The notes under the pieces: model-generated
Database searches by the model: none
What the model saw: only the letters and a program-made list of their open reading frames with translations
What the model was told of the DNA's origin: nothing
Shown: positions 23,190 to 45,759 of the stretch, in pieces
Layout of the letters: each line of letters starts with the position of its first letter
Position numbering within the stretch: the stretch's first letter is position 1
Assembly (NCBI RefSeq): GCF_900168125.1
Contig: NZ_FUZF01000024.1
Span: forward strand, 1 to 64,000
DNA: 64,000 nucleotides
Source of the DNA: Sphingobacterium nematocida
GTDB taxonomy: Bacteria; Bacteroidota; Bacteroidia; Sphingobacteriales; Sphingobacteriaceae
Direction of reading: 5' to 3'
Translations under genes and position numbers: made by a program

Positions 23190-23273
23190 ATATTTGTGAA
23201 TAAGGTTAGTAAGATTCGTACTTGATGCTTTCTCAGGGCAGTACGAGTTAAATTAACATTTTATTAAATACAT

Positions 23274-23296: not shown

Positions 23297-23307
23297 TTTT
23301 TTTGCGC

Positions 23308-24420: not shown

Positions 24421-24474
24421 AATTCAGTCTGTATGCTATATATAAGACAAACCAAAATCGACTCGGTATACAAA

Positions 24475-27560: not shown

Positions 27561-28556
27561 CTATGAAGAAAGCTTATGATAGATAGTGTTTTTTTTATCA
27601 CCGACTTTTTCTATTAAGCCCTGGTCTACACCATTTTTCAAGTCTCTACTTGCTGTAGCTGAGGAGAGATCTGTGAATTTTTTGAGATAGTCTTTGCGTG
27701 TAAAAGATGTATTAGTATGCGCCAAGAAAAATGCTAATCTGTCTGTACTATCGGGCTTTTTAACAGCGGTCTCGATAAGTTGATCGAGAGATTGGTTTAT
27801 GATAGAGAGCATAAATTCAATGAATTTTGTTGACTTACCTTCATTGTCGGATGTGGATAGTGCCTCATAGTATTGTTCCTGATTCTTTGCTATGAGTGTT
27901 TCGAATGATAGAAATTCAAATATGGGAAAATCTTTCATTAAAATGAGCGTCTGCCAAAGCCTGCCCATGCGGCCATTGCCATCGATAAAGGGGTGGATAA
28001 ACTCCATCTCATAATGAAAAACACAGCTCTTGATAAGTGTTAGTTCTGTTTTATCCTTAAGATAAAGAAATAGGTCTTTCATAAGGAATGCAACATTCTG
28101 AGCTGGGGGGGCTACGTGTTGTACTTGACTACCCTTTATTATGCCAACACCCTGGATCCGATATTTTCCAGGAGACTCAATTAAACCTTGCATAAGATAT
28201 TTATGAGACTTTAGAAAATCTCTTTCTGAATGAAATTTGAATTCACTCAATTTCTTATAAACTTCAAGTGCATTTAAAACTTCTTTAATATCTTTCTCGG
28301 GGCCCAATACACGCTTCTTATCAATGATAGCAGTGATCTGAGCCTCGGTTAGTGTATTCCCTTCAATGCTTAGCGAAGAGTGTATAGTTTTGATTTGATT
28401 TTGCTTCCGAAGAGTAGGACTTTGCTTGATGAGATGCTTAGCATTTACCTCACCTATTTTTATAGAAATAGTAGATATTAAGTTTAGTATAAGTGCTGTG
28501 ACGTCGTAAGGTGGTTTCATTATTACTAAAGTGATACTATCATTTGATACTATCAA
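27561..28556 (-). CDS. Fic-domain protein (AMP-transferase type) with N-terminal inhibitory helix
   Basis: The Fic core motif HPFIDGNGRMGR is at residues 188-199, including catalytic His188 and the GNGR anion-binding loop. A flap is visible at about 141-151 (KGSQVQHVAPP). The inhibitory motif S/T-x-x-x-E-G/N is present (SLSIEG, 61-66), so this is a class II, self-inhibited Fic protein. The C-terminal 80 residues form a winged-helix-like domain (FTRKDYLKKFTDLSSATASR). Fic proteins transfer AMP to proteins. The start may be 28520 (MKPPYDV). It follows the 96-aa gene by 55 bases. Confidence 0.9.
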   Translation of the reverse strand: MIVSNDSITLVIMKPPYDVTALILNLISTISIKIGEVNAKHLIKQSPTLRKQNQIKTIHSSLSIEGNTLTEAQITAIIDKKRVLGPEKDIKEVLNALEVYKKLSEFKFHSERDFLKSHKYLMQGLIESPGKYRIQGVGIIKGSQVQHVAPPAQNVAFLMKDLFLYLKDKTELTLIKSCVFHYEMEFIHPFIDGNGRMGRLWQTLILMKDFPIFEFLSFETLIAKNQEQYYEALSTSDNEGKSTKFIEFMLSIINQSLDQLIETAVKKPDSTDRLAFFLAHTNTSFTRKDYLKKFTDLSSATASRDLKNGVDQGLIEKVGDKKNTIYHKLSS

Positions 28557-29206: not shown

Positions 29207-31153
29207 ATGCAAGCTAATTATTTACGTTACCTTACAGTTATTTTGTTTTTCAGCATGTGCTTTATGCAGTCATGCAACAAACACTTTAATGAATATTACC
29301 ATCCAAAGAGTACTTTGGGAAATAGCATAATAGGTATTTTGGAAGAAAAAGGAGAGTATGGTGTGTTCCTCTCGCTGATAGACAAAGCAGATTTACGGAA
29401 ATCTTTGAGCGAATCCGCTATTTATACCTGTCTAGCACCTAAGGATGATTTTGTTAAAGAGTATTTCCTCGATAAACTGAAGTACAATTCGTTGGATCAG
29501 GTACCTTTGGCCGAAGTACGTGCATATATAAATTACCATTTTATTAATGGTATGTACTATACCTATGATTTAGAGAAGCGTTATGCATCGACGCAGAGTG
29601 CGATTAGTAAGAGTAGGATCACTAACTATAAAACCAGGAGTGAGGGTAAGAACGTCGGTAAAAACCTCCGTATCCTAACGCCATCCTTCTTTGCAGGACA
29701 AGCGAGTGACTTTGAATATATGTATGGCGAGGGTGACGGAGCGGCATATTATGTGGAGGGCGTAAAAATATCGGCAACTGAATACGACATTGATGCCCGT
29801 AATGGGGTGGTACATGTTTTGGATGCTCCTTTGTTTCCGACGCTGCGTACGGATCTGGCCTTGGCAAATGACCCTGATCTTTCTATTTTTAGCCGATGGG
29901 TGGAGCGTCACGCTCAATATGTGCTAGGCGATGTAGACGAAAATGGCAATGTGGATACTACCTTGTATAAAAACTTTTCCTTTGGCCGAAATCTAGCCGA
30001 TGAGAACACCTTGTCAACCTTATTTGCCCCCACCAATGAAGCTATAGCAGCATACTTTGAACCTTATATGGATATTCTGGATAATACCTTGGATTCGGTA
30101 CCTCCGCATGTGATGTATTCTATTATCCGATCCAGTGTGCACGCTAATCTCTGGTATCACTCTGATCTGGTAAGAAATGACCCGCAGTGGAATGCATTGA
30201 CTGGTTTTATACGTTTTGGCAACCCGGTGTTGGAATCGATAGAAGGAATGACGCCGGCCAGCAACTCCTTTATATATAAAACCAATCGGTTAATGGAATC
30301 GCCAGAAATGAGTAGCGTCCGATCTGGCATCATGATGAAATACAAGGAATACAGCCAATGGTTTTGGATGATGACAAATAAGGGATTGGGTTCGGGCTTG
30401 GTCGACGTATTGTTCTACCAGCACAGTCCGAAGACGCTCTTGGTACAGTCGGATGAAAGTTGGGGATCTCCTTTTGCCCAGGATATGGATGCTGTAGCGC
30501 TCGAAGCAAGATTAAAGGAATGTAAAACAGGAATATTTCATTTTGATGCGCATGCAGACGGGGGCTTTAAAAAGCGGTTTTATCCGACGGATGAAGGATA
30601 CATCCTCTATGACAACAACAAATTTTACGATTATACGGGCCACGCGGTGAATTTGCTAACGTCGTCTCCGGTATGGGCCAAACCTACAGGAGCTATCTAT
30701 GAGATCGATGGTTTTCTGAAACCGCTGGATCGCTTGGACACGGAAAATACAGTATGGAAAGAAATTCAATCCAATACCAATCTTTCCAGTTTTAAGTCGC
30801 TGGTGGATAAAGCGCTGATGGCTGGAGAGTTGCAGCTGACAGGTTTTTTTACCTACTCGGTCTTTGCGCCTTCCAATGCAGCAATCAGCGCAGCAGGGAT
30901 AAACGTGGCTACAATCAGTGCAGATGCTGCTAAAGCTATTGTGAACAGGCATATCGTCACTAACAGACATTTATTTACGGATGGAGTGTTCAATGGCCAG
31001 TTGGCAAATAAAAAGGGGGAGTACCTCACCTTCTCGGGAGCATGGGATACCTTCCGGATACAGTATCAGGCAAATGTAGCTGCCACTTTGCCAACCGCTA
31101 GCAATATGCAGGGAAGCAACGGTGTAGTGCATATAGTCAACAAAGTATTATAA
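29207..31153 (+). CDS. FAS1 (fasciclin) domain surface lipoprotein, first gene of sialate operon
   Basis: The 648-residue protein has a lipoprotein signal (Cys in CFMQSCNKHF). Three FAS1-type repeats are visible by their blocks: IYTCLAPKDDFVKEYF, STLFAPTNEAIAAYF and YSVFAPSNAAISAAG. The NGVVHVLDAP and NGVVHIVNKVL segments close two of them. FAS1 domains are extracellular adhesion or binding modules. Placed directly before SusC (18-base gap), it is probably a surface accessory of this glycan-uptake complex. It starts the operon that ends at 44955. Confidence 0.8.
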   Translation: MQANYLRYLTVILFFSMCFMQSCNKHFNEYYHPKSTLGNSIIGILEEKGEYGVFLSLIDKADLRKSLSESAIYTCLAPKDDFVKEYFLDKLKYNSLDQVPLAEVRAYINYHFINGMYYTYDLEKRYASTQSAISKSRITNYKTRSEGKNVGKNLRILTPSFFAGQASDFEYMYGEGDGAAYYVEGVKISATEYDIDARNGVVHVLDAPLFPTLRTDLALANDPDLSIFSRWVERHAQYVLGDVDENGNVDTTLYKNFSFGRNLADENTLSTLFAPTNEAIAAYFEPYMDILDNTLDSVPPHVMYSIIRSSVHANLWYHSDLVRNDPQWNALTGFIRFGNPVLESIEGMTPASNSFIYKTNRLMESPEMSSVRSGIMMKYKEYSQWFWMMTNKGLGSGLVDVLFYQHSPKTLLVQSDESWGSPFAQDMDAVALEARLKECKTGIFHFDAHADGGFKKRFYPTDEGYILYDNNKFYDYTGHAVNLLTSSPVWAKPTGAIYEIDGFLKPLDRLDTENTVWKEIQSNTNLSSFKSLVDKALMAGELQLTGFFTYSVFAPSNAAISAAGINVATISADAAKAIVNRHIVTNRHLFTDGVFNGQLANKKGEYLTFSGAWDTFRIQYQANVAATLPTASNMQGSNGVVHIVNKVL

Positions 31154-31171
31154 CCTAAATAGCCTATAAAT

Positions 31172-34100
31172 ATGTACAAGCATATTAATTTGAAAAGTAT
31201 TATCTGCCTATTGGTACAGTTGTTTATTCTCTCGGCTTTTGCACAACAGAAGCAGCTGACAGGAAAAGTGTACGAACAAGCGCTCTCTAATCCATTTGCA
31301 CAAGTGTCAATTCTTTTCGTAAGTAGTTCTGATCTAATTCTAACGGCTTACAAAAGCGAAAAAGATGGCAGTTTTCAGGTCAATATTCCGGTCAATGCTA
31401 CCAAAGTAGTGTTTTCTACGGTGGGTTATCTAAAGCAGGAATTTCATCTCGCTACGGTGTCGGGACGGCTAAATGTTGTCATGAAAATAGATGATAAACA
31501 GATTGAAGAGGTCGAGATCGTGGCAAACGCAAAACCGGATGCCGATCTGGGGTTTGTCAATATCAATAAAAGAGAGCTTTCGAGTTCGATAGCATCTATC
31601 GACATGAAGGGTATCGAAAACCTTCCTGTGGTATCGGTCGATCAGTTTCTACAGGGAATGGCTCCAGGTCTGCAAGTGGTATCTAATAGCGGCGACCCGG
31701 GCGCTGCCGCTTCCATCCGGATACGGGGGATATCGAGTATTTCCGGTATCAACGATCCATTATGGATCATTGATGGTGCAGAGGTGATCGGAAATAATTA
31801 TTCGGTGCAGAGTATTTCGGATTTTGGATTTAGTCCAATAGGTGATCTTGATCCGTCGGATATCGCCTCTATAGATATCTTGAAAGATGCTTCGGCGACG
31901 GCATTGTATGGATCCAAAGGTGCCAACGGGGTAATCGTAATACGCACAAAACGCGGCAAACGTGGTAAACCGGTATTTAATTTTAATGGACGATTTACCT
32001 TGTCTGAAGTGCCGCGCAGTATCCCAATGTTGAATGGAGACGAGCATAGGATATACTCGATCGAACGTTGGACTGGTGGAAGTGATGACGGTTCGGCATT
32101 GCCCGAGCTGCGTGGAGATATGACACGTGCGGATGCCTGGAAATTTAATAATAACACCGATTGGCTGAAAGCGATAAGCCGTACCGGAATCTATCAGCAA
32201 TACAATACCTCGCTGAGTGGTGGTGGTGATCGTATAAACTATTACTGGGGGCTGGGCTATACCAACCAATATGGTACCACCAAAGGAACTGGATATGATC
32301 GTTTCAACACCCGATTTAACATGAATTATCGCGTGTCCGATAAATTGTCGATCACAGCAGATTTAACTTACACAAATTCGCTGACGGACAAACGCGGTAC
32401 AAGACATCCGTACGATATCAATGCGAATAATGAAATGAATCCGCTGCGGCTAGCCAGACAGATTCCAGCTTATTTTCCGATGTACTCTAAGAATGGACTG
32501 GATTATTTCGTGGACCGCAATGCAGGCGTTTCCTTTTATTCCCGATTTAATCCGCTAGCACTGATTGATTATTCCCAATTTCTATCTAAAGCAAACCGGC
32601 TGATGGCCTCGACAAGTATCAACTATAAGATTTTATCAAACCTGGAATTTACGACACAGGTATCTACCGATTTTAGGGAGGCCTCAGACGATTATTTCTT
32701 GCCTAGTTATGCGACGGATGCGATCCCTGGAGAAAGTACCTACAATGCGGGGATGCAATCGGAAGGGTATCAACTCTTGGTGAATAATGTCAATAAGCTC
32801 ATGTGGAAGCCTATTGATAAGGAAAAGCACCGGCTTACGGTCACCGGGGTAGCCAATCTGAGCATCGATAAGAGCAACAATATGGAAATACGCTACTTTA
32901 ACGGAGCATCTCCGCAGTTGCGCTCGGCTGATGCCTCTGCGCGAATAAGTGCCATTAATGGAGGATATACGGACCAACGGTATCTCGGAATGTTTGTACA
33001 GGGACACTACGCCTTATTGGATCGCTACTTTCTGACTGTAACTGGAAAGACGGAGGGGGATTCGCGTTATGGCAATGAAAATGCCTATACGATATTTCCG
33101 GCAATAGGAGCTGCATGGGATATGACACGCGAGCGGGCAATCCGAAATGCCGAATGGATATCGACCTTAAAACCTCGTTTTGCTTTTGGTATCACGGGTA
33201 ATCTGCCTAAAATAGCTAACATCTATGACATTGCGTATGCCACGAAAATCGGATACATGGGACAGACCTATATATACCCGGATAAATTTGCCTACGAAAA
33301 TATTAAAGAGGAAAGGACAACAGAGTATAATCTGGGACTCGACTTTGGATTTCTAAAAGATCGGATCACGGGCCAATTTGATATCTACAAGCGCACGACA
33401 AACGACCTCTTATTAAAAGAGTCGCTGTCCAGTACCTTGGGATACGCCAACCAGTACGTCAACTTCGGTACGGTAGAAAATTCGGGAATAGAGCTTGGCG
33501 TTACGGTGGATGTACTAAGAGGAGGTAAGGATAGGCCACGATTGAAATCGTTCTTTAATATTGCGCTTAATAGGAATAAACTGATCAAGCTTCCCGAGAA
33601 TTTTGATGCGGCATCTTTTGCTGCTACTCGTAATGGCTTTGCTTCCAAACTGCAAGAAGGTGATGTGATTGGAGGATTTTATGGCTATCGGGCGCTTGGG
33701 GTATATGCTCGTGATGAAGATGCATACCTCAAGGATGCACAGGGAAACCTAATCTATGAAGCAGACGGCAGTACGCCAAAGATAATGCGTTATGGGTCGG
33801 TAACTGGTCATCAGTTTAAGGGGGGAGATATGATCTATGCAGATATCAACGGTGATGGGGTGATTAATCAGTTGGACCGAGTGCAGATCGGAAATGCAAA
33901 CCCGACCTTCTTCGGTGGGTGGAACAATACATTGAGCTACAATAAGTATACACTGGCTGTCAATCTACAGTATCAATTTGGTAATGACATCATCAATGGT
34001 ACCCGGATGATCATGGAGGAAATGTCGGATTCGAAAAATCAGGCGCAATCGATTCTGTCGCGTTGGAGAAGACAAGGGGATGTGACCGATATGCCTAAAG

Positions 34101-34393
34101 CACAGCCTAGCAGCGTGTGGAATAGTGTAGCGTCGACCAGATGGGTGGAAGATGGATCCTATGTACGTCTCAAGTCGGTATCTTTTACCTATGAGGCTGG
34201 CGACCTGTTGAAACGATGGGGATTGAAACAGTTGAGTTTTTTTGTAACAGGTTATAATCTGTTAACGTGGACCAACTATCTGGGTGTAGATCCAGAGGTG
34301 CCCATCAAAGGGTCGGTGTATCTATTCGGAATAGACGATAGCTACACTGCGCCACCGAAGCAGTACACTTTTGGATTTAGATTTAATTTATAG
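31172..34393 (+). CDS. SusC-type TonB-linked outer membrane transporter (sialate locus, pair 1)
   Basis: The 1073-residue protein has a signal peptide ending AFAQQ, a CarboxypepD-like domain (about 28-105), the linker QIEEVEIVANAKPDADLG, plug motifs IRIRGISSISGINDPLWIIDG and ILKDASATALYGSKGANGV, and a barrel ending TFGFRFNL. There is no STN domain, which fits control by a cytoplasmic regulator rather than a sigma/anti-sigma pair. It is paired with the SusD gene downstream, whose start lies 19 bases after its stop. Uptake of sialylated glycans is inferred from the locus. Confidence 0.92.
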   Translation: MYKHINLKSIICLLVQLFILSAFAQQKQLTGKVYEQALSNPFAQVSILFVSSSDLILTAYKSEKDGSFQVNIPVNATKVVFSTVGYLKQEFHLATVSGRLNVVMKIDDKQIEEVEIVANAKPDADLGFVNINKRELSSSIASIDMKGIENLPVVSVDQFLQGMAPGLQVVSNSGDPGAAASIRIRGISSISGINDPLWIIDGAEVIGNNYSVQSISDFGFSPIGDLDPSDIASIDILKDASATALYGSKGANGVIVIRTKRGKRGKPVFNFNGRFTLSEVPRSIPMLNGDEHRIYSIERWTGGSDDGSALPELRGDMTRADAWKFNNNTDWLKAISRTGIYQQYNTSLSGGGDRINYYWGLGYTNQYGTTKGTGYDRFNTRFNMNYRVSDKLSITADLTYTNSLTDKRGTRHPYDINANNEMNPLRLARQIPAYFPMYSKNGLDYFVDRNAGVSFYSRFNPLALIDYSQFLSKANRLMASTSINYKILSNLEFTTQVSTDFREASDDYFLPSYATDAIPGESTYNAGMQSEGYQLLVNNVNKLMWKPIDKEKHRLTVTGVANLSIDKSNNMEIRYFNGASPQLRSADASARISAINGGYTDQRYLGMFVQGHYALLDRYFLTVTGKTEGDSRYGNENAYTIFPAIGAAWDMTRERAIRNAEWISTLKPRFAFGITGNLPKIANIYDIAYATKIGYMGQTYIYPDKFAYENIKEERTTEYNLGLDFGFLKDRITGQFDIYKRTTNDLLLKESLSSTLGYANQYVNFGTVENSGIELGVTVDVLRGGKDRPRLKSFFNIALNRNKLIKLPENFDAASFAATRNGFASKLQEGDVIGGFYGYRALGVYARDEDAYLKDAQGNLIYEADGSTPKIMRYGSVTGHQFKGGDMIYADINGDGVINQLDRVQIGNANPTFFGGWNNTLSYNKYTLAVNLQYQFGNDIINGTRMIMEEMSDSKNQAQSILSRWRRQGDVTDMPKAQPSSVWNSVASTRWVEDGSYVRLKSVSFTYEAGDLLKRWGLKQLSFFVTGYNLLTWTNYLGVDPEVPIKGSVYLFGIDDSYTAPPKQYTFGFRFNL

Positions 34394-34412
34394 CGTTTTA
34401 GAGGATAAGAAA

Positions 34413-35939
34413 ATGAATCGTATTACAGGATATTTAATGGTATTGTCAACCCTCTTTTTGGGGGGCTGTGACAAGTTTCTAAATGTAGAGGTGCCAGACA
34501 ATTTGGTACACGATGAGTATTGGCAGAATAGAGAGCAGGTATTGGCTTCTAGAAATGGTATGTACGCTGCGTTGCATAATAATATCAATATTTTTCAAGT
34601 CTGGGGCGATATCCGATCGAGTCTGTACACGCCTGGCCCTGGCGAATCTTTTACATCCGACTATAGGCAGTTTATGGTTCATGATATCTATCCGACTAAT
34701 GGATTGGTGAGATGGGGGACTGTCTATACAGGGATCACCTGGATCAATTCGTTTATAAAGAATGCGCCAGCAGCATTACAACGAGACCAGACTTTTAAGG
34801 AAAGTGAACTGCAGATGATGATGGGAGAGGCCTATGCACTGCGTGCACTTAGTTATTTCTATTTGGTACGCGCATTCAAAGAGGTGCCTATTATTGAAGA
34901 ACCTTATGAATCGGATGCGCAAAAGTTCAATACGGCGGCAAGTAGCGAAGAAGAGGTGCTGAATTTTATCGAACAGGATCTGGAACGTGCACTCGCTACG
35001 ACTGCTACTGATTTTGAGAATGTAAACGATCGATACGGCCGCATAACCAAGAACGCAGTGCGCGCCATATGGGCTGATGTGAAATTGTGGCGAAACCAAT
35101 ATCAGGCTTGTCTGGATCTGTGTGCTCAACTAGAAGGGTATCGTAATCGGATGGTCGAACCGAAAGACTGGTTTACGCTATTCAACCCTGGAAACTCTAG
35201 CGAAAGTATTTTCGAGTACCAATATATGCAGACGGGTTTTTCTTCTCCGGTATACGGCTGGTTTGGACACTTTCAGGCAGCGAGCACGGGAGCCAAATAC
35301 ATGGCTAATCCAACGAATATCGGGATCAATGGCTTAGAGTTGTATCCGCCTACAGATCTCCTGAATTGGAGTGCAGATACGGTACGGCTCAAGGATTTTT
35401 CCACATTTCGTCAGTCTCCGGTGAGCTATTCTGGCGGCTCTGGATTTGAAGTTTATAAAATGGTAGGACAGACACCATACGTAACGAGTTATAGACCTAT
35501 TACCGGACGCAATATGAATTATATATTCTATCGTTATCGTGAGGTGTTATTTATGGAGGCGGAGGCGCTAGCGATGCTCAATAGGTATCAGGAAGCTGAA
35601 GAACGAATCAACCTGATCAGGACAAAGTGTGATATTCCAGAGCTAAGCCCTGGCGCAATGGGGGGCGGCGAAGAGTTTATGCGCTATCTCTTGATGGAGC
35701 GCGAGTTTGAATTGGGATTTGAGGGTAAAGAATGGTTTGTGGCCACGCGTGTGGCTAGGAGGCAGGGAATGGAGGGGGTACTGCTTGAAAAATCGTCGGA
35801 GAATAATCCGCTGGGTATCCAATATCAAGTCGTACGCGCACGGTTGCTGAATCCAGAAAGCTGGTTCTTGCCTTACCATGAAACGGAACTGGAAAATAAC
35901 AAGTCCTTGGTACAGAAGGATTATTACAAAAACAAATAG
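34413..35939 (+). CDS. SusD-family lipoprotein (sialate locus, pair 1)
   Basis: The start at 34413 (MNRITGYLMVLSTLFLGGC) gives a canonical lipobox GGC. The longer frame overlaps the SusC end. The protein has the SusD features KFLNVEVPDNLVHDEYWQN, a TPR-like half (GEAYALRALSYFYLVRAFKE) and the C-terminal YREVLFMEAEALAMLNRYQE and EREFELGFEGKEWFVATR blocks. It is the ligand-binding lid of the upstream SusC. Confidence 0.92.
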   Translation: MNRITGYLMVLSTLFLGGCDKFLNVEVPDNLVHDEYWQNREQVLASRNGMYAALHNNINIFQVWGDIRSSLYTPGPGESFTSDYRQFMVHDIYPTNGLVRWGTVYTGITWINSFIKNAPAALQRDQTFKESELQMMMGEAYALRALSYFYLVRAFKEVPIIEEPYESDAQKFNTAASSEEEVLNFIEQDLERALATTATDFENVNDRYGRITKNAVRAIWADVKLWRNQYQACLDLCAQLEGYRNRMVEPKDWFTLFNPGNSSESIFEYQYMQTGFSSPVYGWFGHFQAASTGAKYMANPTNIGINGLELYPPTDLLNWSADTVRLKDFSTFRQSPVSYSGGSGFEVYKMVGQTPYVTSYRPITGRNMNYIFYRYREVLFMEAEALAMLNRYQEAEERINLIRTKCDIPELSPGAMGGGEEFMRYLLMEREFELGFEGKEWFVATRVARRQGMEGVLLEKSSENNPLGIQYQVVRARLLNPESWFLPYHETELENNKSLVQKDYYKNK

Positions 35940-35961
35940 ACTGGGACTAAAACGAAAGGAT

Positions 35962-37410
35962 ATGGTTAAGTATAGTACACTTTTTATTGGAGGATTTATA
36001 GCATGCTGTATGCTTCTATGCATTCAGGCATGTAAAGATAAATTTTCGGATGCGCGTTATGATTCTACAGATGAAATACAGATCATGGACTATCTGGATA
36101 CCAGAGAGGATCTAAGCATATTTAGAGAGATGATCGATCATGTAGGGCAGCGTAACTTATTGAAAACCGCCGGCTCGTATACCGTGTTCGCTCCGACAAA
36201 TGCTGCTTTTGAAAAGCTCTTTGAAACATTAACACTGGAAGGTAAGCCTATTAAGAAGGTGACCGATGCTCCTGCGGACTATTGGTTGCGATTTTTTAGG
36301 TATCATATATTAGACAAAAAAGTCAATACGAATGTATTTATCCATGGTCCGCTGCCTTCACCAACAGCGTATCAAGGTAAGTACCTTATAGCGGATATAA
36401 GTGGTTCTTACGAATCGATACGATTGAATAATGTCGCTACTATTAAAGAAAGCAACATTAACTTTAATAATGGGTTTGTCAATGTATTAGACGCTGTACT
36501 ACCACCTCCCACAGCATCGGTATATGAGATGATGGTCCAATCGGGTAAATATAATACGATGCTTTCCATCTTTGAGGAGACGGACTTGATTGACTATCTG
36601 AAAGATAGTATTGTGACCGTCCTGGTGGAGAGTGATGACGCATTGAATAGAAGCAAATTCAATAAAGATGATATCAAAAACCTGAAGGATTGGGCATCTT
36701 ATCATATCATCCCGGATTCTGGATATTACCTCAATCTGCTCACCGCACAACGTTTCTATCCATTGTACAAAAAGGAGGCTTTGTCGTTCTCGGTGGATAC
36801 TTATGGGCAGTATAAGGTGAATGGTAAATACAAATTTAACCAAACTGCCCAGTATGGTATAGACAAAATAGGTAAGAATGGGATATACCATAGTCTGGAT
36901 ACCGTGTTGGAGATCGTAGCGGCGGTACCGTCTAGGATAAGACTCAACTTATACCCGCCAGGAAGCAGCTATGGTGCACAAAATGTCTTTACCCAGGCCC
37001 CGGCATCTATAAGGCTTAATAATGGTACACAAAGTTATCATCAGGACAAAAAGCCGATGATCGTGCAGTTTGATGCGACACAGGCTGGAGACTATTTCTG
37101 GATGACCGTACCGGATGTACCCGCCGGAAAGTATAGAATAAGACTGACACAGCGCCTCAATGCGCAGAGAGGTAAATTCATGACTATTTATAATGATAAG
37201 ATCGTGAAGGACATTATCGATTTTTCTAAAAAAGACGGCGATTTTGAAGAGTATAATTATTTCGCGTTTAATTATTGTGGCGATATCGAAGTGGAAGAGC
37301 GGTCGGATGTCAAATTAAATTTTGTATTTATGGATTTTGGGTCAAACAAATCACCAAGCTATTGTTGCGACCTGTTGTTAGATATTCTTGAACTGATCCC
37401 TATTAACTAA
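35962..37410 (+). CDS. FAS1-domain surface lipoprotein (second)
   Basis: The start at 35962 (MVKYSTLFIGGFIACCMLLCIQAC) gives a lipoprotein signal. Residues about 40-185 form one FAS1 domain (YTVFAPTNAAFEKLF; NGFVNVLDAVL). A second follows to about 305 (GIYHSLDTVLE end). The last 180 residues are a beta-rich domain of unknown type (QFDATQAGDYFWMTVPDVPA). It stands between the two SusCD pairs, 22 bases after one and 18 before the next, so it belongs to the same surface machinery. Confidence 0.8.
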   Translation: MVKYSTLFIGGFIACCMLLCIQACKDKFSDARYDSTDEIQIMDYLDTREDLSIFREMIDHVGQRNLLKTAGSYTVFAPTNAAFEKLFETLTLEGKPIKKVTDAPADYWLRFFRYHILDKKVNTNVFIHGPLPSPTAYQGKYLIADISGSYESIRLNNVATIKESNINFNNGFVNVLDAVLPPPTASVYEMMVQSGKYNTMLSIFEETDLIDYLKDSIVTVLVESDDALNRSKFNKDDIKNLKDWASYHIIPDSGYYLNLLTAQRFYPLYKKEALSFSVDTYGQYKVNGKYKFNQTAQYGIDKIGKNGIYHSLDTVLEIVAAVPSRIRLNLYPPGSSYGAQNVFTQAPASIRLNNGTQSYHQDKKPMIVQFDATQAGDYFWMTVPDVPAGKYRIRLTQRLNAQRGKFMTIYNDKIVKDIIDFSKKDGDFEEYNYFAFNYCGDIEVEERSDVKLNFVFMDFGSNKSPSYCCDLLLDILELIPIN

Positions 37411-37428
37411 AAGTCTGAGTTCTGATTT

Positions 37429-40179
37429 ATGAATAAGAGAAAAAAAATAGTATCGTCTTGTGTTGTAGCTTTGCTGGTCAGTAATATGCTGTGCGCCCAA
37501 CAAACAGACAACCTCGATAGCGTAAGGATATCGAATCTCCATCTTTCGACCGTATCTATAGTTGGCAAACTCTACAGTCTGCCCAAGGTAGCTGTGATGG
37601 ATAATGGTAATGTAGGAGCGAGTCCGGTACTGATGTTGCGTGGCGTAAATAGTATAAACCTGTCGAGTAGTCCATTGGTGTATATTGATGGAATTCCGCT
37701 GCGCTATACAGGGTCTAATCCCACTTTTTTGTCCACCTATGAACCGGATAGGCTTAGTTTCTTAAACCCTTATGAGGTAGCCGGAATCGGTATATTGCCT
37801 TCGGGAGTCTATCTGCCTAAAATCGGAGGTCGTGGTGCCAACGGTGCATTGGATATCCGAACGGAGAGGGGAGAATTCGGTGGTACCAAAGTAGATTTTA
37901 GTGCTAATTATGGAATTAATAGGGCCGATTATAATGTGCCTCGATTGGATGCCAGTAGTATGAAGTCTTATCTGTGGTCGAGAATGGGTGAGGAAGGAAT
38001 GACAAACCAGCAGCTAGACCAACATCCTATATTCTCGCCGACAAATCTTTTGTACAACAACCAGACGGACTGGTTGGATCTGATACGGAAGCAGGGTGTA
38101 TTTCAAGACTATCACCTCAAGCTCAAGGGCGGGGATGGCGATGCCAACTACTTGTTTGCAGTGGGATATACCAATAAAGAGGGCACCATTAAGAATACGG
38201 ATTTTGAACGTATAGGTATCCGCTTTAACCTGGATTATCAATTATCTACCAAGGTAAGTATCTACAATAATCTATCGTACACGAATACCAGTGGGCATTA
38301 TAAAGAATTTGGGTCGGACTATACTACGCATCCAATATATGTGGCCAGCGCCAAAGCTCCGTTTATGGGGACCCATTACCGCAATGAGAATGGCGAACAA
38401 AGTAGGATACTCGCAGCAGTAGATACGCTGGGATTTAGTAATCCGCTGGCATTGGTAGATAATCTGACCAATAAGAATCAATTTAACCGGATTGATGGGG
38501 TGATGGGCGTAAATTGGAATCTCGCAGAATCCTGGAACTTGAATTCTGATCTTTCGGTTTCTTACTTTAACTTGTCCGAAAAGCAATATAGACCTGCCCT
38601 AGGCATTGTTCCTGATTTGTACCGTGTGCGTCAAAATTCGCAAAGAAGCTCTAGCGAATTTTACTTAAACTGGAACTCCAGACTGTCCAAAAAGGGGAAG
38701 GTAGCGGAGGCTATCGCATACGAAGCAGCGATACAAGCTGCAGTGGAAACCTATGAAGAGAAAGCAATCTATGGTAGGAAAGTAAATGCTGGTACAGACG
38801 ATTTTGAAACCTTGGCACAAGGGATAGTCGATAGTGCCTCCAATACACGTTATCGCTCAAATCTGATGACATACATGGCGCAGGGAGCTATCTTGTGGAA
38901 TGACCGCATTGGCGTAAATGCATCTGTCAATGTGCAAGGGTCGTCCAATTTTGGAGCTAATGCGCGATGGAATATCTATCCGACAGTACAGGCTACGGCT
39001 TACATCTGGGGAAAGAAAACGCAAAATAAATTGGATCTTGGGTTGGGATATGATCGTACGGGCAATCATGAAGTAAGGGGTTTTTATCACTACAATCAAT
39101 ATTATCCGGTCAATTACTTCGGCTTTGGTGGAGTTTACCTTGGAAATATTGGAAACCCGGATTTACGCCCTGAAATAACAGATACTTATGAGATCAAAGC
39201 AAATATTCATCCTTTTGGGAACCGTGTACATCTAGGTTTCGGTTATTATTACAAACTGACAAAAGATCTAATCACCCATAGGGCTACACGGAAGGAACTC
39301 GGAATAGAAGGTCTATTCGAAAATGCGGGCAAGGTGGAAAATAAAGGATTGGAGATAGCAATGTCAGCCCAACTTGTACAGAATAGTGACGTGAAATGGA
39401 ATATGTCGGCCGCACTGTCTACCTTAACGAACAGAGTCACGGCACTGCCTAACGGTGATATCGAACAGTATCTAGGCAACAACATAGGTTTGGCCCGTGA
39501 AGGAGAAGCTTTGGGATCTTTTTATGGTTACAAGGTAACAGGTGTGTTTCAACGTGAAGAGCAGGTAGATCTCAATAAATCCGATGGTACACCTTATCAT
39601 GCAGGAGACTACATCATAGAGGACATCAATAATGATGGTAAAATCAATACGCTGGATAGGCAGGTGCTGGGCTCGCCGTTACCGCGCTTCTTTGGACATG
39701 TGTCTACTGATTTTAGTTATAAGCAATGGGGTATCTCTGCATTGGTCAATTTTGTGCAGGGATCCGATATCTATAATAGTTTTAAGCAACAGATGCATCT
39801 TATGAGCGACTATGCAAATCAGGATCCTGCAGTGATGAACAGATGGCGGTCTGAAAATGAAACCGGAGACGGTTTAAGCAGAGCGGTAGTGGGTGATCCT
39901 TCTTCTAATGGGGCAACTTCGTCGTTGTGGGTAGAAGATGGAAGTTATCTTAAGTTAAAGAATGTGACGTTGCATTATGAGATCGTAGCAGGTACCAAGC
40001 AGTTATTTTTTAAAAGGATAAGAGTCTATTTGAGCGGAGACAATTTATGGACATTAACCAATTACACAGGTTTTGACCCAGAGGTCAATGGCCTTAATAG
40101 TCCAATGCTACGTAATATTGATTTTGGTGCCCCACCATTAGGGCGTACGTACAAGCTTGGAATAAAGGCCTCATTTTAA
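37429..40179 (+). CDS. Short SusC-type TonB-linked transporter lacking the N-terminal domain (pair 2)
   Basis: The 916-residue protein is shorter than its neighbours. After a signal peptide (ending LCAQQ) it goes almost directly into a plug-like domain: VLMLRGVNSINLSSSPLVYI and GGRGANGALDIRTERGE. There is no CarboxypepD-like or STN domain, and the usual plug strand with LKDAsAT is replaced by GIGILPSGVYLPKIG. The barrel is normal and ends YKLGIKASF. It could form a divergent pair with the next SusD. Confidence 0.88.
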   Translation: MNKRKKIVSSCVVALLVSNMLCAQQTDNLDSVRISNLHLSTVSIVGKLYSLPKVAVMDNGNVGASPVLMLRGVNSINLSSSPLVYIDGIPLRYTGSNPTFLSTYEPDRLSFLNPYEVAGIGILPSGVYLPKIGGRGANGALDIRTERGEFGGTKVDFSANYGINRADYNVPRLDASSMKSYLWSRMGEEGMTNQQLDQHPIFSPTNLLYNNQTDWLDLIRKQGVFQDYHLKLKGGDGDANYLFAVGYTNKEGTIKNTDFERIGIRFNLDYQLSTKVSIYNNLSYTNTSGHYKEFGSDYTTHPIYVASAKAPFMGTHYRNENGEQSRILAAVDTLGFSNPLALVDNLTNKNQFNRIDGVMGVNWNLAESWNLNSDLSVSYFNLSEKQYRPALGIVPDLYRVRQNSQRSSSEFYLNWNSRLSKKGKVAEAIAYEAAIQAAVETYEEKAIYGRKVNAGTDDFETLAQGIVDSASNTRYRSNLMTYMAQGAILWNDRIGVNASVNVQGSSNFGANARWNIYPTVQATAYIWGKKTQNKLDLGLGYDRTGNHEVRGFYHYNQYYPVNYFGFGGVYLGNIGNPDLRPEITDTYEIKANIHPFGNRVHLGFGYYYKLTKDLITHRATRKELGIEGLFENAGKVENKGLEIAMSAQLVQNSDVKWNMSAALSTLTNRVTALPNGDIEQYLGNNIGLAREGEALGSFYGYKVTGVFQREEQVDLNKSDGTPYHAGDYIIEDINNDGKINTLDRQVLGSPLPRFFGHVSTDFSYKQWGISALVNFVQGSDIYNSFKQQMHLMSDYANQDPAVMNRWRSENETGDGLSRAVVGDPSSNGATSSLWVEDGSYLKLKNVTLHYEIVAGTKQLFFKRIRVYLSGDNLWTLTNYTGFDPEVNGLNSPMLRNIDFGAPPLGRTYKLGIKASF

Positions 40180-40214
40180 TATAGATTTATAAGGATAATG
40201 ATAATTATATACAT

Positions 40215-41732
40215 ATGGAATATAGAAAAATAGTCGGATGTATAGTGCTCTTTTTGTTACTATCGGGCTTTCTTAGCTCTTGCTCTGACTTCTTTGAGGT
40301 CGAACCTTATGAAGCCGTCGTCGAAGAGGATTTTTATAAGAGTCAAAAGGATTTAAATGCTTCGGCATTGGGGATGTATGCGCCTTTGAGTAAAGATGTG
40401 CACAAGTTTCTCCTCTGGGGGGATGCCAGGGCTGATATGGTCACGACGGGACAGAGTGAACCTGCCCCTTATGTGAATGAGTTTGTGATAAATAATGTGA
40501 GTGTACAAAACCCTTATGCCGATTACGGTAGTATTTATGAGACGATAGCGCGATGCAATCGACAATTGGAACGTGTGTATGACGTGGTAGGTAAGGACGA
40601 TAAGTTATTGCCTAAAAGTGCGAACGCTTATTATGCCGAAGCACTGCTGTTGCGTGCAATCTGTTATTATTACCTTTTACGGACTTTTGAAAGTTTTCCC
40701 ATAATCCGTTCGGATTACGCAGAGGAAATTTCTTACGTGGACCAACAGGGAAAAACCGTGAATCGTAAGACATCCGAGCTATCTGCTGGTGAAATTGAGG
40801 ACCTGCTTCAATTTCCGGAAGATAAACAGGAGGTGTGGCGAATGATTTACAACGATGCAATTGCAGTATTGGGAATGCTGCCGCTGAACTTTCAATGGAA
40901 TAATGAAACGTTGCCTGCCGAGGAACGATATGGGCGTGTGTCACAGCCTACAGCAGCTACATTTGCCGCAGAGTTGGCAATTTGGCTTGGTGAATTTCAG
41001 ACGGCTTCGGCCTTTTGTAATTCGCCTATAGTCAATAACCAGCATTCATTAGGTACTGCTGGCGCTTGGCCCAATCAGTTTACCGGAAGTTATGCCGCGC
41101 AGCACAGTATGTTTTTACTGGGATATCGATTTGATAATAGTTTTGAAACGAATAGGTTGCAAGAGTTTACCTCAAATATCGCCGCAGAAGGCGGGAAGTA
41201 TTATCTAAAGCCTGCGTCGCAGACGATAAACACTATTTTCTCTTACGAAAGCAGCGATGTAAGAACCAATTTTAGCTTTAAGGTGTTTGGACAGGATACG
41301 GTAATATGGAAGTATATCGGACTGGATAATGTTTCTTCTAGACGTCCGGCTTATCGAAGTATCGCGAGTTGGCAGATTTACAGGTCGGCAGATGCCTGGC
41401 TTCTAAAGGCATTGGCCGATTTACATCTGAACGATTTCGCCTCAGCTTTTAATTTTGTCAATATGGTCAGAGAAGCCCGTGGATTGGTAAAGTACCTCCC
41501 AACCGATATTGATTACACCGATAAGAATCTTATGCTACAGGTGATATTTACCGAACGTGCCAGGGAATTTGCTTTTGAAGGTAAACGATGGTATGACCTC
41601 ATGTTATGGTCTAAATTGTCGGGACGTAATATGCTCGCGGAAAAGGTGGCCGCAAAATATGAAGGAACGCTGAAAAATGAAGTTTTCCAAAAATTACAGG
41701 ATGAAAAGAATTGGTATTTACCTGTCAATTGA
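40215..41732 (+). CDS. SusD-family lipoprotein (sialate locus, pair 2)
   Basis: The 505-residue protein has lipobox LSSC and the SusD start SDFFEVEPYEAVVEEDFYKS. The TPR region (AYYAEALLLRAICYYYLLRT) and C-terminal blocks (ADAWLLKALADLHLNDFAS; FTERAREFAFEGKRWYDLML) are normal. It is partner of the short SusC. The next gene, a sialidase-fold lipoprotein, starts 37 bases later. Confidence 0.92.
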   Translation: MEYRKIVGCIVLFLLLSGFLSSCSDFFEVEPYEAVVEEDFYKSQKDLNASALGMYAPLSKDVHKFLLWGDARADMVTTGQSEPAPYVNEFVINNVSVQNPYADYGSIYETIARCNRQLERVYDVVGKDDKLLPKSANAYYAEALLLRAICYYYLLRTFESFPIIRSDYAEEISYVDQQGKTVNRKTSELSAGEIEDLLQFPEDKQEVWRMIYNDAIAVLGMLPLNFQWNNETLPAEERYGRVSQPTAATFAAELAIWLGEFQTASAFCNSPIVNNQHSLGTAGAWPNQFTGSYAAQHSMFLLGYRFDNSFETNRLQEFTSNIAAEGGKYYLKPASQTINTIFSYESSDVRTNFSFKVFGQDTVIWKYIGLDNVSSRRPAYRSIASWQIYRSADAWLLKALADLHLNDFASAFNFVNMVREARGLVKYLPTDIDYTDKNLMLQVIFTERAREFAFEGKRWYDLMLWSKLSGRNMLAEKVAAKYEGTLKNEVFQKLQDEKNWYLPVN

Positions 41733-41769
41733 TACTATTATGATCAGAACAACGCTAAAGCGATTAAAT

Positions 41770-43665
41770 ATGAAGACAATATTACAGCATTTGATGTATT
41801 GTTGCGTAGGTGTGCTATTACTTAGTGCTTGCTATAAAGAACAGCATTGGGATTTTCCCGGGCCATTTGAAGAGGAAGTCATAGTGCCGGATAGTCTACC
41901 TTTTCCGTTTGATGCTAACAGAGAAGCGGGCATTTGGTTGATGAAAGAAGGGCAGCCTTTTCACGAAAAGGTGCTCTTTAAAGGGTTTACAGATTACTAC
42001 GCAGGCGGCGATACCCTATCTTGGCTGTCGCAACCGGATGGTATGCGCCTAATCCAACATCGCAATCCCTATCCAGTGACTAATGCCGATCATGTAGGGG
42101 GACGCGAAAATAGCTATCGCAATAATTATGTAGTTTCTAAATACTTTGTGCCTGTGGGCAAAGGGAAAAGTTTCTATATGTATTTTAAGGCTACCATAGG
42201 AACATTCAACGGTACGGCTGCGGGAATCGTATTGGGGAGCAGTTGGGAAAATGGTAAAGAGTTCATCTTTGGATTTGATGGTTTTTCAAATGTCGCACCC
42301 CAGTTCTTTCTGGATCTTTATGAAAAAACCTTTAGTGTAAATCCAGCGGCGGGTTGGCCTACGGTAAATGAGGTAATAACACCCGGGATGCCCGCAGAGT
42401 TTGAAACTGTTATTGTCGATAACCTATTTTATATCAAAGTGAACGGGGTACTTTGTTTTAAGATGCAACTTCCTGAACAACAGCTTTTCTATTACACGCC
42501 GAGTATACGTCCGTGGCGAAATTTTATGACGGTACACGATTTCTATATGGAAGCCCCTGAATCTTATACGGTAGACTACGCTTTTCATCATAAGGAGTTT
42601 GACTACAATTTTATCCAACGTCCAGCGCTTTCCACTACAGCTAATGGAGATATTCTTTTATTTGCCGAAGGAAGGGGCGACTATATCGACGCCTATCAAC
42701 GTATTGCACAAAATACGAGAGCGATAGGTAATACCGATATCATCTTAAGGAAGTCTGTAGATGGAGGCAATACATGGAGTAAAGATATTGCGGTATTGGC
42801 AGGCGAAAATTCTACGGACACCTATGCAAATCCTCAGGTGGTAAAAACAAGTAATGGCACGTTAATCTTGCAATACAGTAAATTATTCTATACAAGATCT
42901 GCTAATAATTATATCATAGATCCAAATCGACAGATCATTTATCAACGTAGTTCGACAGACAATGGCGTAACTTGGTCGCCAGAAATTAATATAACGGAAC
43001 AGTTAAGAAGTACTGTTGTAGATCTGCAGCATGTGGCAGGACATGGTATAGCGCTCCGACAAGCTGCACGTAAGGATCGACTGGTTATGCCCCTTAACGC
43101 GGGGACTAATCAAGTACGTGTGGTATATTCTGATGATATGGGGGCTACCTGGAAGGTAGCAGGTGCAATCTCTGGAACAAATCTGCGTAATCCCTCTGTT
43201 GTGGAGCTGAATGATGGTCGATTAATGATGCTATTGTCCCACACAAGTGTGACTCCTAGGAATAAAATGGTAAGTTACAGCACTGATGGCGGTGCGACAT
43301 GGACTGCTGCAACGTCTTATGCAAATGGATTGGCTACGGGAGATTTTGGGCATACATTTCCTGCAGTTTTACTTGGAGATGATAGTGGTAAGTTGTACTG
43401 TGCAACGCCTTTAAGCAGAGGGACGGACCCTCGGTCTTATGGCATGAGCCCTGTGTATGCCAACTCGCCTACACTTTATGCCAGTGATAATCAGGGGCAG
43501 TCGTTTAACAGTTTAGGAGCTCTATTTAACAAGATGACGTACAACACTTATCTCGTGCCTGTGGGTAATATGGATGCGGTGGTTTTACCATCTGGTAAAG
43601 TGCTTATCGCAACAGAAGGAGGAATAAATACACCATTTGAAGGAATAGTAACCTATAAAAAGTAA
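41770..43665 (+). CDS. Sialidase-fold (BNR) surface lipoprotein with noncanonical RIP motif
   Basis: The start at 41770 (MKTILQHLMYCCVGVLLLSAC) gives a lipoprotein signal. The N-terminal 260 residues look like a lectin-like beta domain. The C-terminal 370 form a six-bladed propeller with at least four Asp-box motifs: SVDGGNTW, STDNGVTW, SDDMGATW and STDGGATW. The expected YRIP/FRIP arginine motif reads FIQRPAL, retaining Arg but not the standard order. It may be a divergent exo-sialidase or a sialoglycan-binding propeller. It follows SusD in the same operon. Confidence 0.75.
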   Translation: MKTILQHLMYCCVGVLLLSACYKEQHWDFPGPFEEEVIVPDSLPFPFDANREAGIWLMKEGQPFHEKVLFKGFTDYYAGGDTLSWLSQPDGMRLIQHRNPYPVTNADHVGGRENSYRNNYVVSKYFVPVGKGKSFYMYFKATIGTFNGTAAGIVLGSSWENGKEFIFGFDGFSNVAPQFFLDLYEKTFSVNPAAGWPTVNEVITPGMPAEFETVIVDNLFYIKVNGVLCFKMQLPEQQLFYYTPSIRPWRNFMTVHDFYMEAPESYTVDYAFHHKEFDYNFIQRPALSTTANGDILLFAEGRGDYIDAYQRIAQNTRAIGNTDIILRKSVDGGNTWSKDIAVLAGENSTDTYANPQVVKTSNGTLILQYSKLFYTRSANNYIIDPNRQIIYQRSSTDNGVTWSPEINITEQLRSTVVDLQHVAGHGIALRQAARKDRLVMPLNAGTNQVRVVYSDDMGATWKVAGAISGTNLRNPSVVELNDGRLMMLLSHTSVTPRNKMVSYSTDGGATWTAATSYANGLATGDFGHTFPAVLLGDDSGKLYCATPLSRGTDPRSYGMSPVYANSPTLYASDNQGQSFNSLGALFNKMTYNTYLVPVGNMDAVVLPSGKVLIATEGGINTPFEGIVTYKK

Positions 43666-43677
43666 GATTTACAAGTT

Positions 43678-44955
43678 ATGAAGGATACGTGTTATTTGAT
43701 GAGCAGAATTGCTCCAATCATCATAGGACTGCTTGTCGCGGTGACGTTGTCTTGTACAGATAAGGATACAGGAATGGCTGCTGTGATGAATTTTGAAAAG
43801 CCAGAATATCAACCCGGTGAAAATGTCGATAATACAATTGTCAAAGAAACGGTTCGGGTATTCGAACAAGGAAAAGAAGGGTATCATTCGTATCGGATAC
43901 CGAGCATAACAACAGCGCCAAACGGATCATTGATTGCAATGGCCGAGGGACGAAAGCTCACGAGTCTGGATTATGGTGATATCGATATTGTGGCGAAGAC
44001 ATCTACCGATAAGGGGAAGACGTGGAGCGCATTAAGGGTGCTGGTTCATGAAGGCGAAGGTACTTGGGGAAACCCAACGGTGGTGACAGATTACATTAAG
44101 GGCCGGATTTGGGTTTTTATGTCCTGGAATTCGGAATTGCATAGTCAAAGTGGGGGAAGCTTCAACGGTAAGAATTACGCTGCGGTTACGAAATGGGGAG
44201 ATCGTAGGGTGTTTAGTATTTTCAGTGATGATAGTGGCGCGACTTGGTCAACTGCGGCCGATCGTACAGAAGAATTGGTTCCAAAGGATTTTGTATGGGA
44301 TGCTGTGGGACCGGGAAGTGGTATCCAAATTGAAAATGGCCCCAATCAGGGACGCCTGATCATACCCGCGGGTGAACGAAATATCTACAGTGATGATCAT
44401 GGCACGACATGGAAATATCAACGTATTCCGAAAAATACATTTGAAGGATCTATCGTAGAATTAAGTAGTGGATTATTATTGCGCAACGATAGAGCGGTAG
44501 CAGGCACCTGGAGCAAAGGAAGGTTTAGATATGTTTCTAAAGGTTCGATAGAAGGTGGGTTTGCTAACTTTAGTGCTGACGCTAACCTGATTGATCCCAG
44601 GTGTCAGGGGTCGATATTGCGGCTGTCGTACACGCCAAACCTTATTGCTTTTATAAATCCAGCTCGTAATGAAGGGGAGACTATGCCGTATCGATGTAAT
44701 ATGACTTTACGATTGAGCGCCGATGATGGAAAGTCCTGGTTTGTCTCCAAAGCGCTGACCTATCCAGGAATAGCACAGGGGCAGCTGTGCGCATTAGGAT
44801 ACGGTGGATATACGAGTATGTCGCGTATCAGTAACGATGAAATAGCACTGTTGGTGGAACAGGTCACTGATCCATCTGCAGGAGCAGCCATAAACAGAAA
44901 GCACGCTATCGATTTCCATCATATTAATCTGAATTGGATTCAGTCCGTAGATTAA
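43678..44955 (+). CDS. Exo-alpha-sialidase (GH33-like), lipoprotein
   Basis: The lipoprotein signal ends TLSC (Cys about 26). A canonical YRIP motif is at 72-75, with R73 of the catalytic Arg triad, followed by four Asp boxes: STDKGKTW, SDDSGATW, SDDHGTTW and SADDGKSW. The C-terminal part has PYRCNMTL, another Arg context. The 425-residue size is that of a bare catalytic domain. It cleaves terminal sialic acid from host-type glycans at the cell surface. It is the last gene of the first operon, 12 bases after the preceding one. Confidence 0.88.
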   Translation: MKDTCYLMSRIAPIIIGLLVAVTLSCTDKDTGMAAVMNFEKPEYQPGENVDNTIVKETVRVFEQGKEGYHSYRIPSITTAPNGSLIAMAEGRKLTSLDYGDIDIVAKTSTDKGKTWSALRVLVHEGEGTWGNPTVVTDYIKGRIWVFMSWNSELHSQSGGSFNGKNYAAVTKWGDRRVFSIFSDDSGATWSTAADRTEELVPKDFVWDAVGPGSGIQIENGPNQGRLIIPAGERNIYSDDHGTTWKYQRIPKNTFEGSIVELSSGLLLRNDRAVAGTWSKGRFRYVSKGSIEGGFANFSADANLIDPRCQGSILRLSYTPNLIAFINPARNEGETMPYRCNMTLRLSADDGKSWFVSKALTYPGIAQGQLCALGYGGYTSMSRISNDEIALLVEQVTDPSAGAAINRKHAIDFHHINLNWIQSVD

Positions 44956-45066: not shown

Positions 45067-45759
45067 ATGTCAACAAAGGATTTGATGAACGACCTAAAGC
45101 CTATCGCTGTGAATACAAGGGCAGATTTGGTAGAGGTACAATTGAGAGAATATCTCGATAAAAAGGGGTTAAAAGCGGGAGATGTATTGCCGACAGAGAT
45201 GGATTTGTCGGAGGCCTTAGGAGTAAGTCGAAATGTGCTGCGCGAAGGACTGAGCAGATTGCGTATGCTGGGGCTTATAGAATCCAAGAAGAAGAGGGGA
45301 ATGGTGTTGACAAGTCCTGACATACTCGGTTCTTTTGAACGGGTGTTGAATCCGCAGTTAATGGATACATCGACGTTAAAGAATCTTTTTGAATTACGGC
45401 TGGTGCTGGAGTCGGGATTAGCTGATCTATTGTTTCTTCGGAAGACGGACGCTGATATTAAAGAATTGGAAGCGATTATAAAGAAGGAGAAATCAGGAGA
45501 TAATGATGTCTTCAGAGTGAATAGCGAGATTGCTTTTCATGGCAAATTGTACGAGATAACCGGAAATGATACCTTGAAAAGGTTTCAGATTATGTTAATG
45601 CCGGTATTTGACTATGTACTCAAGAACGAGAACAGAAGCATTAAATCGAATGTATCGCATACGGACCTTGTAAGAATACTTAAAGAGGGTACGAAAGAAG
45701 ATTTTGTACTGGCCATGCGGGAGCATTTGAGACCGCACTATGAAAATTTAAGTAAATAG
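45067..45759 (+). CDS. FadR-type GntR regulator, probable regulator of the sialate genes
   Basis: The 230-residue protein has the GntR winged helix at about 20-85 (LPTEMDLSEALGVSRNVLRE, then GLSRLRMLGLIESKKKRGMV) and the FCD ligand-binding domain at about 100-225 (LFELRLVLESGLADLL; EIAFHGKLYEITGND; DFVLAMREHLRPH). This is the class to which E. coli NanR belongs; its effector there is sialic acid. The gene sits in the middle of the locus with its own promoter, 111 bases from the sialidase gene before it, and is followed by a terminator-like hairpin. It likely represses at the three TTGTAGWACATAA sites. Confidence 0.88.
   Translation: MSTKDLMNDLKPIAVNTRADLVEVQLREYLDKKGLKAGDVLPTEMDLSEALGVSRNVLREGLSRLRMLGLIESKKKRGMVLTSPDILGSFERVLNPQLMDTSTLKNLFELRLVLESGLADLLFLRKTDADIKELEAIIKKEKSGDNDVFRVNSEIAFHGKLYEITGNDTLKRFQIMLMPVFDYVLKNENRSIKSNVSHTDLVRILKEGTKEDFVLAMREHLRPHYENLSK

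Follow-up and report, generated by a model that had tools for sequence, protein, structure and literature searches.

FAS1-domain lipoproteins accompany twin SusCD pairs in a conserved Bacteroidota gene module and in a putative sialoglycan uptake locus of Sphingobacterium nematocida

We analysed a 64,000-nucleotide stretch of the Sphingobacterium nematocida genome (NZ_FUZF01000024.1, positions 1–64,000; hereafter the window, to which all coordinates given without a locus number refer) containing a gene cluster with two SusCD-type transporter pairs, two lipoproteins with fasciclin (FAS1) domains and two lipoproteins with a sialidase fold. Its eight genes, all located on the + strand, follow one another in the order FAS1-1, SusC1, SusD1, FAS1-2, SusC2, SusD2, Sial1 and Sial2, separated by 18, 19, 22, 18, 35, 37 and 12 bases, respectively. 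These lengths are based on start positions corrected by inspection for SusD1 (34413), FAS1-2 (35962) and Sial1 (41770); SusD1 starts at the ATG at 34413, and the listed TTG start at 34371 would overlap SusC1. The gene order and gaps of 12–37 bases described in a sequence-only reading of the window were confirmed for all eight genes. The features of the cluster are as follows:

29207–31153, + strand: FAS1-1, lipoprotein with four predicted FAS1 domains (Pfam Fasciclin 1e-29; AlphaFold2 model)
31172–34393, + strand: SusC1, TonB-dependent transporter with N-terminal extension, TonB box and plug (TIGR04056 681 bits; TIGR04057 signature; Pfam Plug and CarbopepD_reg_2)
31502–31525, + strand: TonB box IEEVEIVA of SusC1 (aligned N-termini; core motif)
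34413–35939, + strand: SusD1, lipoprotein lid (Pfam SusD_RagB 8e-19)
35962–37410, + strand: FAS1-2, lipoprotein with two FAS1 domains and a C-terminal beta-sandwich (Pfam Fasciclin 1e-26; model)
36925–37407, + strand: C-terminal domain of FAS1-2 (residues 322–482), CBM35/CBM6-like fold in a model of moderate confidence (Foldseek; VIA-align)
37429–40179, + strand: SusC2, barrel and plug, lacking the N-terminal extension and a recognisable TonB box (TIGR04056 433 bits)
40215–41732, + strand: SusD2, lipoprotein lid, weakly NanU-like (Pfam SusD_RagB 1e-17)
41770–43665, + strand: Sial1, sialidase-fold lipoprotein with an extra N-terminal domain and replaced catalytic residues (BNR_2 1e-18; alignment with 7lbu)
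43678–44955, + strand: Sial2, sialidase-fold lipoprotein with intact YRIP (PDB 7p1b 2e-57, 2xcy 5e-55)

Pfam searches revealed Plug and SusD_RagB families in both SusCD pairs and BNR in both sialidase-fold proteins, while the Fasciclin scores of FAS1-1 and FAS1-2 (103.7 and 94 bits) far exceeded the cutoff of 22. Both SusC proteins scored above the cutoff of TIGR04056 and both SusD proteins above that of SusD_RagB, and each SusC gene adjoins its SusD gene. The match of SusC2 to TIGR04056 begins only at profile position 128, and the TIGR04057 signature is missing from this protein. Lipoprotein signals were identified by inspection on FAS1-1, FAS1-2, Sial1 and Sial2, for which a surface location is predicted.

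The linkage of FAS1 genes to SusCD pairs is real, general and far beyond chance. Among seven FAS1 genes and approximately 97 SusD genes detected by Pfam in this genome, six FAS1 genes adjoin a SusCD pair. The sialic locus and contig 13 contain two of these each, and contigs 8 and 31 one each. The probability of six such adjacencies for seven randomly placed FAS1 genes is ~6e-8 (assuming 4200 genes, with 97 SusD genes). A wider profile revealed an eighth FAS1 gene, on contig 31, which likewise adjoins a SusCD pair. The order on contig 8 is SusC-SusD-FAS1, and contigs 13 and 31, with the eighth gene included, share the order SusC-SusD-FAS1-x-SusC-SusD-FAS1. In L041, one of three tandem FAS1 loci designated class C (L041, L042, L077), a DUF5007 protein (L041:11533–12570) separates two SusC-SusD-FAS1 triples, and a similar-sized gene is present in L042 and L077.

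Searching related genomes with FAS1-2 yielded four orthologous sialic-type loci with the same arrangement in four related species (class A, L044–L047) and 17 loci of a longer form from the same genus (class B, L048–L064), organised as FAS1(740)-SusC-SusD-FAS1(560)-FAS1(490)-SusC-SusD. When the GTDB genome set was searched with a profile of the class B FAS1-1 protein, 254 relatives were obtained, and the analysis covered the best 80 of them. These 80 derive from Flavobacteriaceae, Chitinophagaceae, Sphingobacteriaceae, Hymenobacteraceae, Flectobacillaceae and other families. FAS1-SusC-SusD-FAS1-FAS1-SusC was present in all 74 loci of this set that are uncut by contig ends, directly in 73 and in L142 once a small extra open reading frame is ignored; the other six of the 80 loci end at contig edges, and nothing in them conflicts with this order. 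The sequence-only reading would have lost its ground if FAS1 genes were not linked to SusCD genes elsewhere; these 74 loci show the linkage. Six loci fetched later carry the complete FAS1-SusC-SusD-FAS1-FAS1-SusC-SusD module, one of them, L185, being the same locus as L163, and eight loci sampled across Bacteroidia agree with the module order as well. FAS1-1 lies directly 5′ of SusC1 with a median gap of 3 bases, the order holds down to ~20% identity, and the linkage is essentially invariant in Flavobacteriales, Sphingobacteriales, Chitinophagales and Cytophagales. The class B protein occurs in ~3% of evenly drawn Bacteroidia genomes (8 of 246).

Genes found next to class B modules encode pectate lyase PL9, a GDSL esterase, GH115 and a sulfatase as well as an aldolase-dehydrogenase and an FGGY kinase resembling rhamnose catabolism. 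Given these differing neighbours, the module would be a chassis serving several glycans. Other FAS1 arrangements were also observed. Some Bacteroidota FAS1 proteins are encoded outside SusCD loci (L088–L097), and several same-genus genomes (L066, L069–L071, L074–L076, L078) have kept an arrangement of one SusC-like protein, two unassigned proteins, three consecutive FAS1 proteins and large unassigned proteins.

The phylogenetic relation of the sialic locus to class B was assessed with quick trees supported by Shimodaira–Hasegawa-like approximate likelihood ratio test (SH-aLRT) values, without bootstrap. The SusD1 family of the window grouped with class B SusD1 (SH-aLRT 92) and SusD2 with class B SusD2 (86); for SusC1 and SusC2 the corresponding values were 97 and 99. 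The FAS1-2 protein of the window scored 124.7 bits against the class B FAS1-2 profile compared with 46.8 against FAS1-3 and 46.3 against FAS1-1. Because SusC, SusD and FAS1-2 all pair with their class B counterparts, the sialic locus is, as judged from these trees and scores, a divergent member of an old, widely conserved module. By descent, FAS1-2 corresponds to the FAS1 protein following SusD1 and thus belongs with SusD1. Most simply, FAS1-3 would have been lost from the sialic locus, so that its neat alternation of FAS1 and SusCD genes would represent a derived, reduced state. The strict alternation emphasised in the sequence-only reading therefore applies to this sub-family, while in the general module two FAS1 genes precede the second SusC.

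An alignment of N-termini showed that the TonB box is kept in SusC1 proteins and absent from SusC2 proteins (window and L044–L064, L080–L087, L100–L189). A core motif was present in 100 of 107 SusC1 and in 0 of 102 SusC2 sequences, for which shuffling gave expectations of 25 and 8, respectively. This motif is anchored in the alignment and was picked after viewing it, with the shuffles as control, and the counts do not represent independent events, as certain loci are repeated and close relatives are numerous. A position weight matrix (PWM) trained on the other SusC proteins of the genome scored SusC2 N-termini at chance rate, with one of 102 above the 99% null. In its strict form, representing the canonical box with GY, it detected only 36 of 107 SusC1 proteins, an undercount because most SusC1 boxes end with A, S or T instead of GY. 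All other SusC proteins of the genome, including those that adjoin another SusC without FAS1, have a recognisable box wherever their N-terminus is complete.

The class A SusC2 proteins have lost the whole N-terminal extension as well. A wrongly assigned start as the cause of the missing box was ruled out, since class B SusC2 proteins possess signal peptide, N-terminal extension and plug. In the class C loci, a clear box and extension are absent from the first SusC, and the second SusC has kept its box; these proteins are placed elsewhere in the SusC tree, and their one-sided box loss looks like a separate loss. Since removal of the TonB box abolishes the function of a normal SusC (PMC7782687), SusC2 is probably not driven by TonB.

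The AlphaFold2 model of FAS1-1 (predicted local distance difference test score 75) comprises four FAS1 domains at residues ~41–205, 213–359, 369–500 and 515–648, with periostin and TGFBIp as best fold matches. FAS1-2 was modelled as two FAS1 domains followed by a C-terminal sandwich, and this domain, in a model of moderate confidence, matched the xanthan-binding module MiXBM (2e-5) and also CBM35 in Foldseek and reached VIA-align Z values of 8.4–10.9 against CBM35, CBM6 and xanthan-binding modules. The FAS1 protein encoded on contig 8 (L040:7489–8961), 3′ of a single SusCD pair, is a lipoprotein in which FAS1 is fused to CBM96 and Cadherin_3. Lipoprotein signals were predicted by rule for all three FAS1 types of the module (77 of 80, 69 of 74 and 74 of 74). 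The domain similar to carbohydrate-binding modules (CBM) in FAS1-2, the FAS1-CBM96 fusion and the near-universal lipoprotein signals favour surface glycan binding over a purely adhesive function; most likely, FAS1 proteins belong to the transporter complex and bind glycans at the surface.

Of the two lipoproteins that the sequence-only reading had described as sialidase-like in fold, both indeed match BNR, and in one of them, Sial1, catalytic residues are replaced. In Sial1, which is conserved in five species and has an extra N-terminal domain, Gln (42616–42618) occupies the position of the Arg-Ile-Pro (RIP) arginine in all five loci aligned, and substitutions also affect Glu, the second Arg and Tyr, as seen in the alignment with 7lbu and in the five-locus alignment. 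Judged by these residues, Sial1 does not qualify as a catalytic sialidase; a binding function, or an enzymatic activity of a different type, is the better reading. Sial2 contains the RIP arginine (YRIP) and matches a GH33 enzyme over its full length (7p1b, 2e-57); it is closest to the sialidases 7p1b and 2xcy, and not to the usual bacterial NanH. These two are of fungal type, among which some act on deaminoneuraminic acid (KDN). In the class A relative L045, an alpha-galactosidase-like gene was observed 3′ of Sial1.

The cluster extends to position 52148 with the following genes:

45067–45759, + strand: GntR/FCD transcriptional regulator (Pfam GntR and FCD)
45860–47500, + strand: Sial3, GH33-type sialidase with BNR_assoc_N domain (Pfam BNR_3 7e-26, BNR_assoc_N 4e-9)
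47517–48428, + strand: NanA-type lyase (DHDPS 2e-56)
48430–49509, + strand: NanM-type kelch mutarotase/epimerase (Pfam NANM 1e-27)
49506–50738, + strand: major facilitator superfamily (MFS) transporter, probable inner-membrane sialic acid importer (MFS_1 1e-60)
50742–52148, + strand: SASA sialate O-acetylesterase (Pfam SASA 4e-19)

Sial3 has the usual combination of BNR_assoc_N and BNR domains, and the best NCBIfam match of the NanA-type lyase is N-acetylneuraminate lyase with 179 bits, under the cutoff of 281. Orthologous loci with enough downstream sequence were compared for these genes. L182 carries orthologues of every sialic acid gene 3′ of the module; L181 and L183 carry Sial3, NanA and NanM orthologues together with an MFS gene that is 44% identical in L181 and 80% in L183; in the L180 stretch a SASA relative is the only sialic acid gene seen. 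The GntR regulator has a 93% identical orthologue in L044, and two N-acetylglucosamine 2-epimerase-family genes are located elsewhere in the genome. Because nan genes occur in the window and are conserved at orthologous loci, sialic acid is a reasonable candidate for the target of the locus, in line with the sialoglycan assignment first proposed from the window.

Two more SusCD loci on the − strand flank the sialic locus, the left one (16387–25038) carrying an ECF (extracytoplasmic function) sigma factor and FecR and the right one (52421–62622) a thioredoxin-like protein. A Fic/DOC family protein is encoded upstream on the opposite strand (27561–28556).

We consider it somewhat more probable than the converse that the locus encodes a SusCD-type sialoglycan uptake machine in which FAS1 lipoproteins act as accessory surface glycan-binding proteins. 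FAS1-1, a rod of four FAS1 domains, and FAS1-2, with two FAS1 domains and a CBM-like head, would hold the glycan at the outer face together with SusD1 and SusD2, aided in binding by the presumably inactive Sial1. Sial2 would trim the glycan at the surface, as Sial3 probably would in the periplasm, and SusC1 and SusD1 would import the product using TonB. SusC2 and SusD2 may form a binding or docking barrel lacking the TonB box, the simplest arrangement being a mixed dimer in which SusC1 is coupled and SusC2 is not. The SASA esterase, NanM, NanA and the MFS carrier would then process sialic acid. A further-reading proposal, put forward only tentatively, is a hetero-dimeric SusCD machine with a TonB-coupled SusC1D1, a permanently uncoupled SusC2D2 serving as glycan-loading platform and FAS1 proteins as obligatory structural bridges; it would constitute a distinct outer-membrane architecture in several Bacteroidota orders, with uncoupling having evolved at least twice.

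Several observations weigh against an uptake machine of this kind. Gene linkage does not distinguish a stable complex from co-regulated partners, and FAS1 domains are known also as adhesins. No Pfam CBM match was obtained for the C-terminal domain of FAS1-2, for which model confidence is only moderate. Some class B SusC2 proteins retain a weak NVVDG/NVVSG stretch and, as TonB boxes differ in sequence, SusC2 might use an unusual one.

The FAS1 proteins could be surface adhesins or spacers for cell-to-mucin or cell-to-cell contact that remain outside the SusCD complex and are co-transcribed since the cell requires attachment to the glycan-bearing surface at the same time as uptake. In favour of this, the FAS1 fold serves adhesion, periostin and TGFBIp are similar to FAS1-1, and other FAS1 proteins of Bacteroidota occur outside SusCD loci; however, a fixed place in a SusCD operon over several orders and down to ~20% identity exceeds what co-regulation usually keeps, and the CBM-like domains point toward glycan capture, so that we regard this as rather unlikely. 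The module might also be ordinary, with FAS1 as another type of surface glycan-binding protein (SGBP) and the twin SusCD pairs reflecting a complex substrate, as several SusCD pairs and SGBPs are found in polysaccharide utilisation loci (PULs) for complex glycans (PMC7618045, discussion). This seems improbable to us, because the order is kept across orders beside differing enzymes, be they pectate lyase, GH115, sulfatase, rhamnose-type or sialic acid genes, and a one-sided loss of the TonB box is not expected from it.

Alternatively, SusC1D1 and SusC2D2 may work independently of each other, taking up different products of one glycan with a separate FAS1 binding protein for each pair, and SusC2 may contact TonB in a non-canonical way. 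Tandem SusCD pairs are generally known from other PULs, and SusC2 keeps its plug and full barrel. The TonB box sequence has been described as flexible (PMC11658791); this possibility is nevertheless doubtful in view of the absence of the motif from all 102 SusC2 proteins, the single one scoring above the PWM null and the missing N-terminal extension of class A. 

If FAS1 lipoproteins do act in glycan uptake, FAS1 domains would gain a role in nutrient import. SusC2 represents a SusC paralogue through which the role of the TonB box could be revealed, and the locus suggests how one uptake chassis that elsewhere neighbours genes for pectin, xylan and rhamnose came to be adapted to sialoglycans. 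Whether mixed complexes assemble in PULs with several SusCD pairs is unknown according to the authors of the utilisome study (PMC7618045, discussion). Two linked SusCD pairs, one lacking the TonB box, with FAS1 genes before and between them provide a clean natural case for this question.

In open-access text, where absence is not proof, nothing was found that describes FAS1 proteins as components of SusCD systems, and no PDB entry found shows a FAS1 protein within such a system; likewise, PDB profile searches with FAS1-1 and FAS1-2 returned no FAS1 chain from any SusCD complex among the entries found. Apart from unrelated matches, two articles in this text mention fasciclin together with SusC/SusD; each of them (PMC10199937, PMC2668756) regards FAS1 as an adhesin. 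Periostin and TGFBIp share four tandem FAS1 domains with the FAS1-1 model; unlike them, FAS1-1 is a bacterial lipoprotein tied to a nutrient transporter, and identity amounts to ~15–17%.

Among SusCD systems, tandem pairs occur in other complex PULs, for example xylan systems, and form two pairs in series as in the locus described here. FAS1 proteins before and between the pairs distinguish the present module from these, as may the one-sided loss of the TonB box. The NanOU system of Tannerella forsythia and Bacteroides fragilis places a SusCD-type pair in a sialic acid operon (PMC3969230), as is the case here, whereas the sialic locus contains two pairs together with FAS1 proteins. The best PDB sequence match of SusD2 is NanU (4l7t, 2.5e-13) and that of SusD1 is 9sje, with NanU ranked lower in this PDB comparison. 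Membership of SusD2 in the NanU family was rejected, as its NF033072 score of 68 bits lies well below the cutoff of 425.

In the levan and dextran utilisomes of Bacteroides thetaiotaomicron, SusCD is co-encoded with additional lipoproteins of the cell surface, namely an SGBP and one glycoside hydrolase, which assemble on SusCD (PMC7618045); surface lipoproteins are likewise predicted to be encoded with SusCD in the locus studied here. Utilisomes consist of one SusCD pair dimerising with itself, no FAS1 protein has been described in them and their SusC is TonB dependent; in the module presented here, two SusCD pairs that have diverged occur with two to three FAS1 proteins, and one SusC is without TonB box. 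The undescribed four-part assembly suspected in the sequence-only reading would hence, as a SusCD complex with additional lipoproteins, be of a known type. By this comparison, utilisomes are the closest known kind, and the novelty would lie in the FAS1 content and the twin SusCD pairs.

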